A stretch of DNA of 64,000 nucleotides, from contig OY755039.1 in the NCBI GenBank assembly GCA_963576565.1, forward strand, positions 139,313,369 through 139,377,368. The letters run 5' to 3'. A program made the translations under genes and the position numbers. Of the stretch, positions 10,554 to 49,760 are shown piece after piece (position 1 is the first letter of the stretch; each line of letters starts with the position of its first letter). Under the pieces are notes generated by a model that searched no databases, was not told the origin of the DNA, and saw only the letters and a program-made list of their open reading frames with translations. This DNA comes from Aspidapion aeneum (lineage: Eukaryota; Arthropoda; Insecta; Coleoptera; Brentidae).

Positions 10554-11380
10554 AAAAGGGTAAAGTTAAAGTCAACCACGGACACCGATGTTTCGGAAAT
10601 AATTACAAAAAAATATATATTTTTTTTTATACTGGGACTTTCAATCCAATAAGGATCAATCGCCCATTTTCGCAAAGTTAGAGCAAGGTTAAAGCATTGT
10701 TAAACAATCACAAACATCCAAGTTTCTAGCCAGGAATCGAACCCGGACCGCCGGTGAGTGAAGCAAATATTGCTACAACTGCACTACGACGACGTTGAAC
10801 TATAGTAATTTTTGTAAAAATTGGTTTTTAATTATGCACAAATCAAATGAAACTTCTTTTCCTCACATACGTGGACAGTTACAGTACATCACACAAGTCG
10901 TCGTTGATCTTACAAACTGACGTAACTCATTTATTGTAATTTTACAAAAGAGCAATTTCAAGTTTTAGGGAAAGTTTATATTGGATTTATATCACTAAAA
11001 ATGTTCTTGGATCTAATGATTTTTGTGCTCTTTAAAGGATTTTTATGAGTTACAACACTTTGTGAGATAAAGGAACGACACAAATAAGGTAGTATTATGG
11101 TCATCTCAAGAATGGATTTTTTTTGAGATACGTCAGTTTGTAAGATCAACGACGAAGTGTGATTTACCTTGAATTTTTTAGAATCGGTTTCTCAATAGAG
11201 GGTTTGCCCTGACCCGTGGGTTATCTTTGATAGCTGTCTTTTTTTAGCAAGTTGTAAATATGTCAGTCATCTCTTTTTTTAACCACGGTCAGTTTGATTT
11301 ACTGTAATGAGGCAAGCCACGCTGAGAATGGAAATGCCTTTTTCCGAAACACCGGTGTCCGTGGTTGACTTTACCTCTTT
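10554..11380. mobile_element. TIR element of unknown superfamily containing a tRNA-like segment
   Basis: The ends are inverted: the left arm contains gtcaaccacggacaccgatg and tttcgg (10571-10597), and the right arm ttccgaaacaccggtgtccg followed by tggttgactttacc (11342-11375). They match nearly perfectly apart from a small insertion in the left arm. A second inner pair, gtcgtcgttgatcttacaaa (10897-10916) and its inverse at 11129-11150, suggests a foldback nested inside. No transposase is present. Confidence 0.65.
10721..10795 (-). ncRNA. tRNA-like (SINE head or tRNA relic) with A and B boxes
   Basis: On the minus strand, TAGTGCAGTTG (10776-10786) resembles the RNA polymerase III A box (TRGYNNARNNG). 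GGTTCGATTCC (10733-10743) matches the B box consensus GGTTCGANTCC exactly, about 33 nt downstream. Spacing and the paired ccggg/cctgg context fit a tRNA-derived sequence. I could not fold a convincing full cloverleaf by eye, so a SINE head or decayed tRNA is more likely than a working tRNA gene. Confidence 0.5.
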
Positions 11381-12785: not shown

Positions 12786-13119
12786 TTTCCTTCAAAACCC
12801 CTCCCCATTGGATCGCTGAAGCTACGCCACTGGCTTCTATAGTCTCTATTAATTGACGGTTCGCCTAATGAAGATGTCTTTCTTCGAATTTAAATGTCTT
12901 CATATGAATTTTTAATTAAAATTAGCACCAAGTTTGTATAAAATGAATATAGGTACACACAACCTCAGGGTATATATTTAAAGTTAGCGCCTTTTTTGAA
13001 CTCTTCATAAATATTTCATGAAGTTTATCGACTTCCTCACTTGTGCGTGCAGGAATTTAGATTCATTTTTACCTTCTTGGTTTTAAAGAAGACAAAAATA
13101 CAAAAACTTCAAAGAAATT

Positions 13120-13225
13120 GAAGAACTTACGGCTACGCTGGCGCGTCGTTCGGGCAAATGCCGATACGTGCGGTAAAGTATCACTTTCCGCACTTGTTAG
13201 GTAATTAACTATTACAACCGTGTAA
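13120..13225 (+). repeat. Fragment matching the Crypton's right flank
   Basis: The segment contains gcgtcgttcggg, then gtgcggtaaagtatcacttt and ccgcacttgttagg. These match the 47500-47565 sequence just downstream of the Crypton gene in the same order. It is probably the leftover end of another copy of that element. Confidence 0.6.
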
Positions 13226-43830: not shown

Positions 43831-44928
43831 CATTGTAATAAAAAACGTAAATTGTAGTGTTACCAGGTTACCAAACACTACAACTACCAAGATTCAACAG
43901 TCGACTTAATGGATTTAACTTTTCTTAACAAAAACAAATTTCAAAAAAATTGCGTAAAGGATTTTTTAAAGATGTTTTTATATAAATAATATATTTTATT
44001 TTTCATCTACACATTTTATCCAAAAAACATTTTTAGTCCGGCGCCCAGTTGGCACAAGAACACGATCGAAGTAAGGTCCAGATTCTGTGTACTGTTAAAT
44101 TCTATAGAGACTTATCGTCCTCTCTTTCTATATTTCGTAATTAGAATGTGATTTAACATCTATGGTGCACAGAATTTGGGTCCAGTTAAGCGCGCATCCA
44201 CCGCATCCTCGTTTGAACACGAATACAAACACATACATACCGGGTATTTATTTCTAGTAAGTATTCAAATCTTTGGAGAATCTCTTTTGGGCTTTATTGA
44301 TACTTTATGATGAAATTACTAATTAAAAAGAGATCAAGTTTTAATATTTTTAAGTAAAATTTGGGAGTGCACATGTGCACTTATGGAGGAACCGACACTG
44401 CCATCAAAAAAAAGGTTTTATCTGAATAGAGCCCTTTTCGGGGGTCCGACCAAAACATTTTTTGTGACTCGTGATAAAACTAGTTGACGTGTTAACCCAC
44501 TAAAAGGAGCATTGTATTTAAAGAATCAGAATAAAAATGAAAAACAAAATTTATTATTTTATATTGCTAGTTTTATTATCTCAAAAGGTGGTGGTGGATA
44601 TTTAATTCCAAAACTCAGGACTTATTTTCCAAAGAATTATATTTTTATATTAATAAATTGGGTACAAAAAGTACGATATAATATTTATAAAATATTTGTA
44701 TAAATAATAAATAAATATTTTATGTAATACAATTTAACACTACCTACTGTAAAAAGCTAAAAATGGTAGAAAAAACAGACATGCATAAATAAACGAAAAT
44801 TTAAAATCAACATGTAACAACTAGGTAACTCCTAAACCTATCTAAAAAATTATTTATTTTTGAGCAAAAATTAATATTTTCAGTTTTTGACAAATTTTGG
44901 GCAGTGTGTAATGAAATATTGATCCTAA
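43831..44928. other. Mostly unrecognised, with one hairpin
   Basis: The only structure seen is an inverted pair at 44077-44095 (ggtccagattctgtgtact) and 44163-44182 (gtgcacagaatttgggtcc), with gttaaat/atttaac also pairing inside: a hairpin of about 110 bp. The rest is AT-rich with no coding motif. Confidence 0.45.
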
Positions 44929-45745
44929 CCCTAGTAACACAGGTACGTTTTAAAAACGTCCATTTCGGACCCAGGGGACGTTTTAAAAATGTACGCCTAG
45001 GTTCCTTAGGGTCCCACAAAGGTCCCTGGAAGGTCTTTGGAACGTTTTTGTGGGTCTTTTTTACGTTTTTAAAACGTCTCCACAGAACGTTTTTAAAACG
45101 TTTTAAAAAAGTTTTTCGGACGTTCATCAAATTTAATTTTTTATACCTTCTACAAAGTTTGGCGACATTTATTAAACGTGCCAGTGACGTTCGAAAACGT
45201 CCCAAAGCATTTTGAGGACGTACAAAACACGTTCCAGGGACGTCTAAAAAACGTTTTAGGGGACGGTTAAAAAATGTTTCAGGGCACGTTTAAAAAACGT
45301 GCAGGGGACGTTTTCAAAACGTTCCAGAGACCCCATCAAGTCAATGGGCCTTTACATATTGAGCACTATTGAAAAATTACTCCACTCTAATTTGAGTACC
45401 GTAAAAACGTTTGAAATTTACTTTTTTCTGATCAGCCTATGTAGATAATGATTATCATGCTAGTGGGAGAAATATGAGGGTTCCGAAAAGTTTTAAGGGA
45501 CCTAAAAAGGACGTTTTGAAAACGTCCTGATTTGCACGTTTGTAAAACTTCCTTTTAAAACGTACTTTTTAAGTAAGCAAATGTTGGGACCTTGAGGGAC
45601 CTTAGACGTTTTAAAAAAATTCCGGTTTTGCGAGATTTTAAAACGTCCGTTTTAGTAAGTTTTAACATATACTTTTTAGGCATGGGAACGTTGGGACCTA
45701 AAGGGACCTAAAAAATACTTTTTCTACGACCGTGCATATATACCC

Positions 45746-45832
45746 ACTTTCCCGCACGCATTTTAGTTTTGAAAGCATCACTTTCCCGCCCTAGTGCGGG
45801 AAAATCACTTTCCCGCACTAGTGCGGGAAAGT
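45746..45832. repeat. actttcccgcac inverted-repeat cluster (possible recombination site)
   Basis: The word actttcccgcacgc at 45746-45759 is the exact inverse of gcgtgcgggaaagt at 47521-47534, on the other side of the recombinase gene. Between 45779 and 45803 lies an imperfect palindrome on the same theme, and 45807-45832 is a perfect 26-bp palindrome (actttcccgcact and its inverse). Such inverted half-sites are what a tyrosine recombinase could bind; this role is inferred. Confidence 0.55.
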
Positions 45833-46174
45833 AAAACTATGCCAATTTTGAAGTTATTCTATAGGTTTATACCTCAAAAGTCGTAACTATCGACTTGGTA
45901 CAGTGTAGGGAATTTAGCAGATAGGCAATCTGATGAATTATAGCTCATTTCAAGTTTTTTATTCAATTTAAAAAAAAAACAGAATAATGGATTTTTTTAA
46001 ATATTTCTGCATACCCCCCGTATAGTCATGTCATACAACAACTATCAAGCCAAGCTGTGACAGGTGCTTGGTCCAGTTTGCTATGACAACCAAGTTATGT
46101 TATTGTTACTCAAACGTCAAAGCTAGTCAAAGAGCGTCTCTGAAGTGACAGAACTGCCTTTTATTTTGAATAAA

Positions 46175-47356
46175 ATGGATTTTTCAATGGACTGTTCCGA
46201 AGATGAACTTCCGGAGTGCATTTTGCAGGCTGCTGAAGATGTGAATGGTGAGCTGCTACCTGCCAAATCGAGACAACGGTACGAAAAACAGTACAATCAT
46301 TTCGTGACATGGTGTAAGGAGAAAGGGGTGAGAATCTACAAAGAAGAAGTCTTCTTGGCATACTTCCTAGACCTGAGCAAGGTCTTGAAATCGAATACCT
46401 TATGGTCACGCTATTCCATGGTGAAAAGCTTGGTTAAAATTAAGCAAAATCTGGACATAAGCAGATTCCACAAGCTAACATCGTTTCTTAAACAAAAAAA
46501 TGTTGGTTTTCGAGTACAGAAGGCGCAAGTTTTTACCAAAGATGATATATCGCGGTTTATGTTAGCTCCTGATGAGATTTATTTGATGATTAAAGTGAGT
46601 ACCATTTTTGCTTTGGCTGGTGCTCTCCGCAGGGCGGAGCTTTTAAATATCACTCTGGATGCCATACAGGATAAAGGAAATCTGATCGTTGTTAAGATCT
46701 CCGACACTAAAAATCATTCCTCAAGATCCTTCGTTTTATCCGAAGAAATAAATAATGGATCTTTTTTGATGCTGTATAGAAAGTACGCAAATTTGAGACC
46801 TCCTACTACTCCGCACCGCCGGTTTTTCATTTATTATAAAAAAGGAAAATGTTCCAATCAGTGTGTAGGAGTGAACACTTTTGGAAAGATGCCATCAGAG
46901 ATCGCTGCATATTTGCGCGTACCTAACCCAGAACGTTATACCGGCCATAGCTTCAGACGTTCTTCAGCAACATTCCTAGCAGATTCAGGTGAGGGCATAA
47001 CAAACATAAAACGCCTTGGTGGGTGGAAGTCCACTGCTGTCGCTGAGGGGTATTTGGAAGATTCCGAGAAACAGAAAGAGAACATCTCGAGTAAGATTAT
47101 TTCATCTACCTATGACCTGCAATCGTTGCCAGCACCGTCATCGTCAACTGTAAGTGACCTGCAACTGCTGCCGTCAACGTCCACTGGAAGAGTCCTGCAG
47201 ACCCAGACGCCATCTTTGCGCACTTTCGATTCTACAAGCGGCCACCAGATGCGAGAATTACCACCATCGAACTCCACTACATCGGCAATTCTAAATAATC
47301 TTCAAACTGCAACAAATTGTGTTTTCAATATCACTATTACCAATAATAATAATTAG
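46175..47356 (+). CDS. Crypton-type tyrosine recombinase, intact single-exon frame (393 aa)
   Basis: The predicted enzyme is a tyrosine recombinase of the Crypton class of DNA transposons, related to the domain found in KCTD1/QRICH1/ZMYM proteins. I chose the ATG at 46175 (aaaatgg, good eukaryotic context); the frame is open 30 nt upstream but without an ATG. Residues about 29-115 form a core-binding domain (SRQRYEKQYNHFVTWC). The catalytic domain shows the first Arg in GALRRAEL (R152), a Lys in SDTKNHS (about K179), the HxxR box in YTGHSFRRSSATFLA (H258, R261), LGGW (W284) and the nucleophile Tyr in EGYLEDS (Y293). A Ser/Thr/Gln-rich tail of about 80 residues ends in NNNN. AATAAA lies at 47374. 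No stop or frameshift interrupts it, and it is visibly richer in G+C than its surroundings. It could be an active element or a recent insertion. Confidence 0.9.
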   Translation: MDFSMDCSEDELPECILQAAEDVNGELLPAKSRQRYEKQYNHFVTWCKEKGVRIYKEEVFLAYFLDLSKVLKSNTLWSRYSMVKSLVKIKQNLDISRFHKLTSFLKQKNVGFRVQKAQVFTKDDISRFMLAPDEIYLMIKVSTIFALAGALRRAELLNITLDAIQDKGNLIVVKISDTKNHSSRSFVLSEEINNGSFLMLYRKYANLRPPTTPHRRFFIYYKKGKCSNQCVGVNTFGKMPSEIAAYLRVPNPERYTGHSFRRSSATFLADSGEGITNIKRLGGWKSTAVAEGYLEDSEKQKENISSKIISSTYDLQSLPAPSSSTVSDLQLLPSTSTGRVLQTQTPSLRTFDSTSGHQMRELPPSNSTTSAILNNLQTATNCVFNITITNNNN

Positions 47357-47373
47357 TATTTTATTTATGTTCA

Positions 47374-47379
47374 AATAAA
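47374..47379 (+). promoter_or_regulatory. Polyadenylation signal AATAAA of the Crypton gene
   Basis: An AATAAA hexamer lies 18 bp after the recombinase stop codon. Confidence 0.5.
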
Positions 47380-47439
47380 ATATTTTTTCAAAAGTAAATT
47401 TGTGGTATTGTAACATCGGTCGAAGAAAAAATAATGTTC

Positions 47440-47572
47440 CTAACTCATGCGGAAAGTGTCTTTCCCACCCTCGACTGCTTGCCCGAACTCCGCTCCGCGT
47501 CGTTCGGGTCAACTGCAGTCGCGTGCGGGAAAGTATCACTTTCCACACTTGTTAGGAAAATAACTATTCCTG
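47440..47572 (+). repeat. Crypton right flank with inverted-repeat end
   Basis: The segment contains gcggaaagtgtctttcccac, a GC-rich stretch with gcgtcgttcggg, the terminal gcgtgcgggaaagt (47521-47534) and cacttgttaggaaaataact. A shortened relative lies at 13120-13225, showing this end is dispersed. Confidence 0.6.
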
Positions 47573-47870
47573 GGACGTCCGGTGTTACTAGGGAATTTAA
47601 AAATGATTTTGATTTTTTTTTTCGAATATTATATCCTACAGACTAGCACCCGTATATTTGAGGAATATAATACCATACATATTTAATAAATACCATTACA
47701 TGAATAAATAATTTTATACCTACCTAACATAGTTTAAATAATATAATTAATAATATTGATATAAAATACTTCACTAAGACATAAAATAAGCAACGTATTA
47801 TTTATTAAAAATTGTATATAATATAAAAATCAACAAAATATGGCACACAACTAACAAAAATCTATACATA

Positions 47871-48170
47871 TACAGAGTGTTCATAAATATTATATTCAAA
47901 CACAAAGCGATGACTATTTTGCTTATTTTAAGACCAAAAGCTTCATTACCGATCTACAGAATACTTTCTTTTTAAGGCTTACTGTTTTTGAGATATTTAA
48001 AACTATTTTAAACATCTAGTAAAATAAAAAAAAATGTTTTTTAATTCTAGCTCATAGACTTTTCATAACTGTATAGTCGACCTATGTTTACATGAACTTT
48101 TTTTTAGTCACAAATTAAGTTGACACATCACTTATCTTCGTTTGTGCATTATATTTAGGAACACCCTATA
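47871..48170. mobile_element. 300-bp TA-type MITE
   Basis: The left end tacagagtgttcataaatat and right end atatttaggaacaccctata are inverted, with TA at each border. The right TA (48169-48170) is shared with the next element. Confidence 0.65.
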
Positions 48171-48440
48171 CAGGGTGTTCCAGAGTTGTATTGCCAAAAG
48201 CACAGGGTAGATTCCTCTCATGAAAATATGAAGAAAAGTTCACATGAACATGTGTACTAAAATCCCTCGTGTGAAAATACAGGGTGTTAAAGTTTTATAA
48301 AAGAAAATATATATTTTTTTAATATCTGCTAAACTATATTTCTCTAAACTTTGTTAAAGGCATTCTACATATCAATGGGCATTTTCCCATGGGCATCAAC
48401 TTTTTACCCAACTACAGCACCGCGAAAGGAATCGGTAATG

Positions 48441-49760
48441 TTTTTAGATTGTTGTATGTGTGTAAATATGTATCAAACAAGTTTCGTGGCTAATTGGGCA
48501 AAAAGGAGTTTTTGTTTCCCTCATACTTTTCCGTGGGTAGCCTGAAAGCTTAACCTCACGGGGGTCCAAGATCTAATGGACACCTAATAAGTGTTGACAG
48601 TTAACTGTTTCGTCCTTAAGGTTAAGCTTTCAGGCTACCCACGGAAAAATATGAGGGAAACAAAAACTCCTTTTTGCCCGATTAGCCACGAAACTTGTTT
48701 GATTTTTAAATTCACGGGTACGAAATTCCACGTTTTAGTATTATTTGGCTTAACAATTCCGGTTATTGACGCTCACTGTCTTGATGACGGGTAAAAATGC
48801 AATATACGTTGATCCGGCCTGAAAGACAAAGAGTTGTCGTAGGTCACGGACTATAGTTGTTTTCTTTTATTTGCATTTGATCTTTTTATTGATCGATATT
48901 GTATAGCAGTGTTTTGCCTGCTTTTGTTTTTTGTTTCTCTCGTATCTCGGTAGATGGCGCTTCTTGCGATAGTTTTCTCACTATTTACATTTGATTAGAG
49001 ACAAAACCGTCTAATTAGCTTCGTAAGATTTGTCACATTGACCAGCAGTGTTCTGAAGAGTCCCATAAGGACGAAACAGTTAACTGTCAACACTTATTAG
49101 GTGTCCATTAGATCTTGGACCCCCGTGAGGTTAAGCTTTCAGGCTACCCAAGGAAAAATATGAGGGAAACAAAAACTCCTTTTTGCCCGATTGAAACGTG
49201 TTTGATTTTTAAATTGACGGGTACGAAATACCACGTTTGTTAGTATAATTTGGCTTAAAAATTCTGTTGATTGACGCTCACTGTCTTGATGACGGGTAAA
49301 AATGCAATATGCGTTGATCCGGCCTGAAAGACAAAGAGCTGTCTTAGGTCACGGACTATAGTTGTTTTCTTTTATTTGCATTCGATCTTTTCATTGATCG
49401 ATATTGTATAGCAGTGTTTTGCATGCTTTTGTTTTTTGTTTCTCTCGTATCTCGATAGATGGCGCTTCTTGCGATAGTTTTCTCACTATTTACATTTGAT
49501 TAGAGACAAAACCGTCTAATTAACTTCGCAAGATTTGTCACATTGACCAGCAGTGTTCTGAGGAGTCCCATAAGGACGAAACAGTTAACTGTCAACAGTT
49601 ATTAGGTGTCCATTAGATCTTGGACCCCCGTGAGGTTAAGCTTTCAGGCTACCCACGGAAAAATATGAGGGAAACAAAAACTCCTTTTTGCCCGATTAGC
49701 CACGAAACTTGTTTGAATTTTAAATTCACGGGTACGAAATTCCACGTTTGTTAGTAAATA
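48441..49760 (+). repeat. ~500-bp tandem repeat, ~2.5 direct units plus one inverted part-unit
   Basis: The word ggttaagctttcaggctacc begins at about 48619, 49130 and 49624, giving periods near 511 and 494. Units share tgatgacgggtaaaaatgca, gttgatccggcctgaaagac and tagatggcgcttcttgcgat. At 48441-48618 the same sequence runs inverted (tcacgggggtccaagatcta), so the array starts with a head-to-head hairpin. A solo fragment is at 21995-22245. Confidence 0.85.

Follow-up and report, generated by a model that had tools for sequence, protein, structure and literature searches.

Same-sided junctions of an insect Crypton in Aspidapion aeneum hint at an unusual insertion mechanism

The recombinase gene and its family

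The window analysed here, a stretch of 64,000 nucleotides from the beetle Aspidapion aeneum, carries on its forward strand a tyrosine recombinase gene encoding 393 aa from its ATG (46175..47356), identified by its ORF, a Pfam search, an alignment and a fold model, and followed by a possible polyadenylation signal, AATAAA, at 47374..47379. The original prediction had described an uninterrupted 393-codon frame with tyrosine-recombinase motifs and a nearby AATAAA, and all of these were found as described. The protein matches Phage_integrase in Pfam (E 8.7e-12), and its predicted catalytic residues are R152, K179, H258, R261, W284, and Y293; in an alignment with 37 homologues, the columns of R152, H258, R261, W284, and Y293 are invariant or at least 90% conserved. 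The fold model (pLDDT 83.1) has Cre as its best PDB match (E 3.1e-9), with the integron integrase IntI at rank 36 and the Tn1549 integrase at rank 44, and a sequence search of solved structures with the recombinase returned one match only, at chance level (E 0.15). Of 128 homologues, 120 were listed; wherever an organism is named it is an insect, except for one bacterial MAG fragment (P0054). Going by homologue names, we place the recombinase with insect Cryptons, though it appears to work like the integrases of Tn916 and Tn1549. Most of the 38 proteins in the alignment share a conserved C-terminal motif, NCxFNI, at residues ~376-390 after a disordered tail.

The gene lies within a Crypton copy of about 1847 bp on the forward strand (45721..47567), delimited by the boundaries of 40 copies, seven clean empty sites and the joint of a dimer. 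Its core, CTACG...AACTA, spans 45724-47566, and TTT on the left and a T on the right are assigned to the element besides. The element is mobile and dispersed, and its only ORF of at least 80 aa is the recombinase, with no RT or DDE gene. The view that this is a transposon of the Crypton type, with a tyrosine-recombinase gene that appears intact, is upheld, and we consider it highly probable that we have here an autonomous insect Crypton, recently active, with a putative circle-type, one-sided mechanism. The features of fungal CryptonF were not found: the recombinase has no GCR1_C domain, Phage_integrase being the only Pfam domain detected at E up to 1, and there are no terminal direct repeats of 4-6 bp, the bases common to both junctions being T's only.

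The assembly containing the window comprises 1.29 Gb in 149 contigs. A DNA search of it with 45746-47534 gave 40 scored copies (the best 40 of 2363 candidates), each of full length and at least 99% identical, and a protein search gave 105 (the best 105 of 3669 candidates), nearly full length and 96-100% identical, of which 18 have internal stops and 87 do not. Both sets are best matches, which favour intact copies, and the counts are lower bounds. The 105 scored copies exclude a domesticated gene at a single conserved locus, the outcome that the original prediction had named as speaking against a mobile element. Among the 40 DNA copies the ORF is complete in 27 (26 with 393 codons and one with 392) and broken in 13; two copies with common flanks (L024 and L029, 99%) were counted as one event. 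The mean pairwise difference is 0.82% (range 0.27-1.41%), and 153 coding variants are singletons vs 13 that are shared. With variants mostly confined to single copies, the pattern is star-like, as from a recent burst, and the family is young and multicopy. An estimate of selection among copies had been proposed; the ratio of nonsynonymous to synonymous variants, 118/81 = 1.46, is below the 3.06 expected without selection, and among singletons alone the counts are 103/50.

Ends, empty sites and targets

The element had been predicted to be bounded by exact inverted 14-mers, ACTTTCCCGCACGC at 45746..45759 on the forward strand and its exact reverse complement at 47521..47534, with a perfect 26-bp palindrome at 45807-45832. 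These coordinates were borne out, but the 14-mers are subterminal and are neither boundaries nor terminal inverted repeats (TIRs). All 40 compared copies extend about 25 bp further left and about 33 bp further right (45721-47567), exact alignment in their flanks running from CTACGACC through AATAACTA, outside both 14-mers; these outer ends are not mutually inverted, and there is no TIR at the termini. Searching the same genome and comparing filled with empty sites, as had been suggested, did recover copies carrying the 14-mers, with ends that lie further out. Boundaries lying elsewhere and leaving out the 14-mers had been named as evidence against the predicted arrangement; the boundaries do differ, but they still enclose the 14-mers.

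BLAST with joined flanks gave a junction-spanning match for 10 of the 40 copies, and the other 30 queries had no spanning match in the sequence searched. Three of the ten (L001, which is the window's own copy, L003, and L035) are too diverged or gapped, which leaves clean paralogous empty sites for seven insertions (L014, L017, L018, L028, L031, L034, and L036). In all seven, the empty site and the joined flanks are equally long once a total of four T is assigned to the element, and there is therefore no target-site duplication (TSD) at these sites; none shows a net gain or loss of bases. An empty paralogue of the repeat entered by L018 lies in the window itself (11288-11380) and is 90% identical across the junction.

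The four-T joint had already been inferred from the empty sites when contig C4 yielded a head-to-tail dimer with the joint GGAAAATAACTA-TTTT-CTACGACC. Both members of this dimer are short of one codon (1176 vs 1179 bases), which makes them close relatives; a dimeric circle or local reinsertion would have this outcome. A dimer with the predicted joint is compatible with a putative circular intermediate, and a conservative Crypton, probably of the circle type, is well supported.

At the right end, an arm and a putative crossover region (AAAA, TAACTA and a T; 47557..47567, forward strand) are kept in the compared copies: TAACTA is present in 40/40, reading TAACAA in L032, while the left end keeps target bases and TAACTA occurs in none of the 40 left junctions. 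This sidedness is not an artefact of the search, because the 40 copies were ranked on 45746-47534 with the ends excluded. It recurs in five further copies from the protein search (L076, L078, L079, L080, and L082); a further nine right ends of relatives, in flanks and in the window, carry these bases or similar ones, but the pattern itself was used to find them, and they are not independent. There are 5-8 T at the left junction (3 in L010) and 1-5 at the right. The exchange can be placed no finer than within the T run; L010, with its three T on the left, fits only one of two placements of the exchange or needs a lost T. The fact that all 40 compared copies have the same one-sided junctions is a hint that insertion follows an unusual mechanism.

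The target consists of an A run and a T run spaced about 5-6 bp apart; left of the window insertion, the target-derived A run and spacer, AAAAAATACTT, lie at 45710..45720 (forward strand), as judged from base counts at 40 sites. At the three strongest positions A is found at 30, 36, and 36 of 40 sites, and the two positions just left of the exchange have T at 39 and 39. At 8-10 nt left of the exchange, 25/40 targets have an exact AAA, vs 6.1% per control position (11200 positions); TTT spans the exchange in 37/40 (control 7.7%), and AAA occurs together with TT in 25/40 (control 1.3%). The AAAA of the joint lies at the same distance from the exchange as the A run of the target. The bases between the runs match TAACTAT at a mean of 2.9 of 7 positions, compared to 2.3 in the control, and are not homologous to it. 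Two nt left of the exchange the target has T in 39/40, whereas the element joint has A there, and the resemblance between target and joint is therefore not a simple one. An apparent preference for T at right-flank position 6 (28/40) was dropped after it reached 5/24 in further copies, fetched with a query running 4 bases past the element end.

Subterminal words, hairpins and related families

Inside the left end, two tandem palindromes (45780..45832), imperfect at 45780-45805 and perfect over the 26 bp at 45807-45832, form a strong hairpin, and the DNA fold of 45719-45840 has -33.1 kcal/mol (z -10.0). The right end folds into an extended hairpin, CCTAAC...GTTAGG (47439..47556), in which the right 14-mer lies on the inner strand; its bottom strand (-44.4 kcal/mol, z -10.4) is 8 kcal/mol more stable than its top strand (-36.4 kcal/mol, z -8.7). 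Both hairpins sit inside the ends, not at the crossover, the exchange being ~11 nt outside the right one.

The right-end hairpin recurs in related families, as elements resident near insertions in the same genome. We aligned five sequences, our own element and the residents in L010, L012, L028, and L069; the L035 resident, which has a deletion, the interrupted one in L036 and partial ends were left out. Pairing is found in 92.5% of 199 cells, vs 35-45% in slid control structures, and three pairs change on both sides; the covariation score was reached by 4/500 shuffles and the number of two-sided changes by 27/500. Covariation across these sequences gives modest support to a conserved right-end hairpin. 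The L012 resident is ~410 bp long and has no recombinase, with at least 40 copies at 97-100% among 2483 candidates. In 12 of its 39 further copies the match begins at bases 1-6 of the query, with another right end directly upstream, a share to be read in light of a query that favoured copies with an upstream right end. Other left ends, CTACGACCAC, CTGCGACCG, and CTGCGACCTC, directly follow a right end in L023, in L026 and in the flank of L020, and head-to-tail neighbours therefore recur.

Chance accounts for the inverted sequences to differing degrees. At least one exact inverted 14-mer pair arose in 19/300 dinucleotide shuffles of 45746-47534 (about 6%), so a single such pair is mildly unlikely by chance. 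The same interval contains one 26-bp palindrome and 7 overlapping 14-mer pairs, to which the palindrome contributes; a 20-bp palindrome of any kind appeared in 1/300 shuffles. With no more than 2 mismatches, the word ACTTTCCCGCAC is matched 14 times in the window vs 3.0 expected, and 6/14 are inside the element. The 26-bp palindrome and the six in-element words are more than mildly unlikely by chance. Five of these six words lie upstream of the gene and the sixth in the hairpin downstream of it. In the L010 and L012 residents, both ends of which are exactly readable, a family-specific 12-mer variant recurs, inverted, at both ends. The variant is CCCGCAC in our own family, TACGCAC in the L012 resident and ACCGCAC in the L010 resident, identical and inverted at both ends, and further word variants are also present in the two residents. 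Because the 12-mer variants recur in this way in two related families, the repeated words behave as family-specific sites. They may be binding sites of the recombinase, as the original prediction had suggested.

Further remains of such elements were seen. The right end of a related element (GTTAGGTAATTAACTA followed by TT) lies in the window at 13102-13210 (forward strand); it has the word GTGCGGTAAAGT and no recognisable 5' part. The L036 insertion is within the right-end hairpin of a related element, the left flank of L037 suggests by eye an insertion in the apparent 3' part of another recombinase Crypton, and L064 carries a 561-bp core deletion derivative fused to another copy's 3' part.

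Models of insertion and known systems

We tentatively propose that the recombinase joins both ends into a circle, whose joint AGGAAAA-TAACTA-TTTTCT would form an imperfect dyad made up of one arm, 6 bp and the other arm (expected joint under this model, AATAACTATTTTCTACG). The circle would then recombine with AT-rich genomic sites that mimic the joint, with no need for a homologous crossover region, in the manner of the Tn916/Tn1549 integrases. The crossover would always fall at the right edge of TAACTA, in the T run, and TAACTA would therefore stay right and the target bases left. One exchanged strand, the bottom one, would be inherited, though an overlap of 2-4 bp within the T run would give the same picture. 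In recombination, the subterminal palindromes and the hairpin at the right end probably serve as signals for binding or folding. The full proposal, a one-strand exchange at a folded end with AT-rich sites, completed by replication, with palindromic ends as folding signals and non-autonomous relatives sharing the right end, is one that we regard as possible but somewhat doubtful.

With TAACTA on the right and target bases on the left in 40/40 copies, the data point either to a one-strand exchange or to an overlap of very few bases within the T run, and the latter is the strongest rival. In that case the element would be an ordinary Crypton with a short homologous overlap, its strands cut 2-4 bp apart in the T run, and the one-sidedness would be uninformative. 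The TTT across the exchange in 37/40 targets and the TTTT of the joint agree with this, as do the 4-6 bp terminal direct repeats of fungal Cryptons, which are thought to be recombination substrates (PMC3212892). Against it, the joint dyad AGGAAAATA-AC-TATTTTCTA and the A-run/T-run target are centred 3-4 bp left of the exchange, which fits a 6-bp central crossover, and overlaps of 6-8 bp are given as typical (PMC3212892). We judge the case for such an overlap to be evenly balanced. A two-strand exchange followed by mismatch repair or replication bias that always restores the same strand would produce an identical 40/40 pattern, but it needs total bias at each independent insertion, the reason for which is not known, and we consider it improbable.

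Two other explanations concern the repeated sequences. The words could be host transcription-factor sites that drive the gene, and not recombination sites: TTTCCCGC resembles an E2F site, and 5/6 words are upstream of the gene. The sixth word, however, is in a hairpin downstream of it, and the words of relatives, ACTTTACCGCAC or ACTTTTACGCAC, break the E2F-like motif yet stay paired and matched between ends, making this account unlikely. The exact inverted 14-mers, with further inverted words at both ends, might also suggest a TIR transposon that captured the recombinase gene and whose DDE transposase bound the 14-mers, as the original prediction had allowed. This we reject as exceedingly improbable from the copy boundaries and the empty sites: the copies reach past the 14-mers, their outer ends are not inverted repeats, there is no TSD at seven clean sites, and the recombinase is the sole gene-sized ORF within the element (among ORFs of 44000-49500). 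These assessments concern separate questions and are not required to sum to one.

We found no description of how animal Cryptons move in the literature searched, and nothing on point for Eulor and hairpin. This family is young, and because its ends, joint and target rule are defined, it offers a concrete, testable system for such movement. The survey of Kojima and Jurka (2011) reports, in the part consulted, no terminal repeats in CryptonI and low copy numbers in most hosts (PMC3212892). As in the CryptonI of insects described there, our element is recombinase-only, with no TIR at its very ends, insect homologues and non-autonomous relatives; unlike them, it has defined ends, joint, target and subterminal palindromes, and many copies, whereas the survey sections examined give no target rule, joint or hairpins for CryptonI (PMC3212892).

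The element shares with Tn916 and Tn1549 a tyrosine recombinase, a circular intermediate (here putative), the lack of a duplication, and A-run/T-run targets ~6 bp apart with little element-target homology (PMC5871717, PMC11838328). The order of their target is TTTT-n6-AAAA, whereas here the A run is left of the T run, and they take a variable 5-7 bp crossover sequence from the flanks (PMC5871717, PMC11838328), whereas here TAACTA is fixed at the right (left, 0/40) and no variable bases are swapped with the flanks; conjugation genes, a feature of Tn916/Tn1549, are absent from the Crypton. A bacterial two-recombinase, multi-gene element likewise exchanges one strand only and has a T-rich 6-bp crossover region, but its 6 bp move between flanks together with the element. 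Integron attC cassettes resemble the Crypton in the folded end, the idea of single-strand exchange and the head-to-tail neighbours; in contrast to attC, the crossover is outside the hairpin and the targets are loose AT-rich sites. Membership in attC was rejected, the CCTAAC...GTTAGG likeness being short and the crossover lying ~11 nt beyond the hairpin. If the exchange is single-stranded, eukaryotic Cryptons would join the integron and strand-biased recombination schemes of bacteria, and an animal transposon would provide a eukaryotic counterpart to them.

The surroundings of the window copy are also repetitive. Dense short repeats of the ACGTTTTAAAACGT and GGGACCTAAA type fill 44939-45725, with the element at their edge, and direct and inverted repeats at ~500-bp spacing occupy 48447-49500, with arms of up to 130 bp that are 97% complementary.
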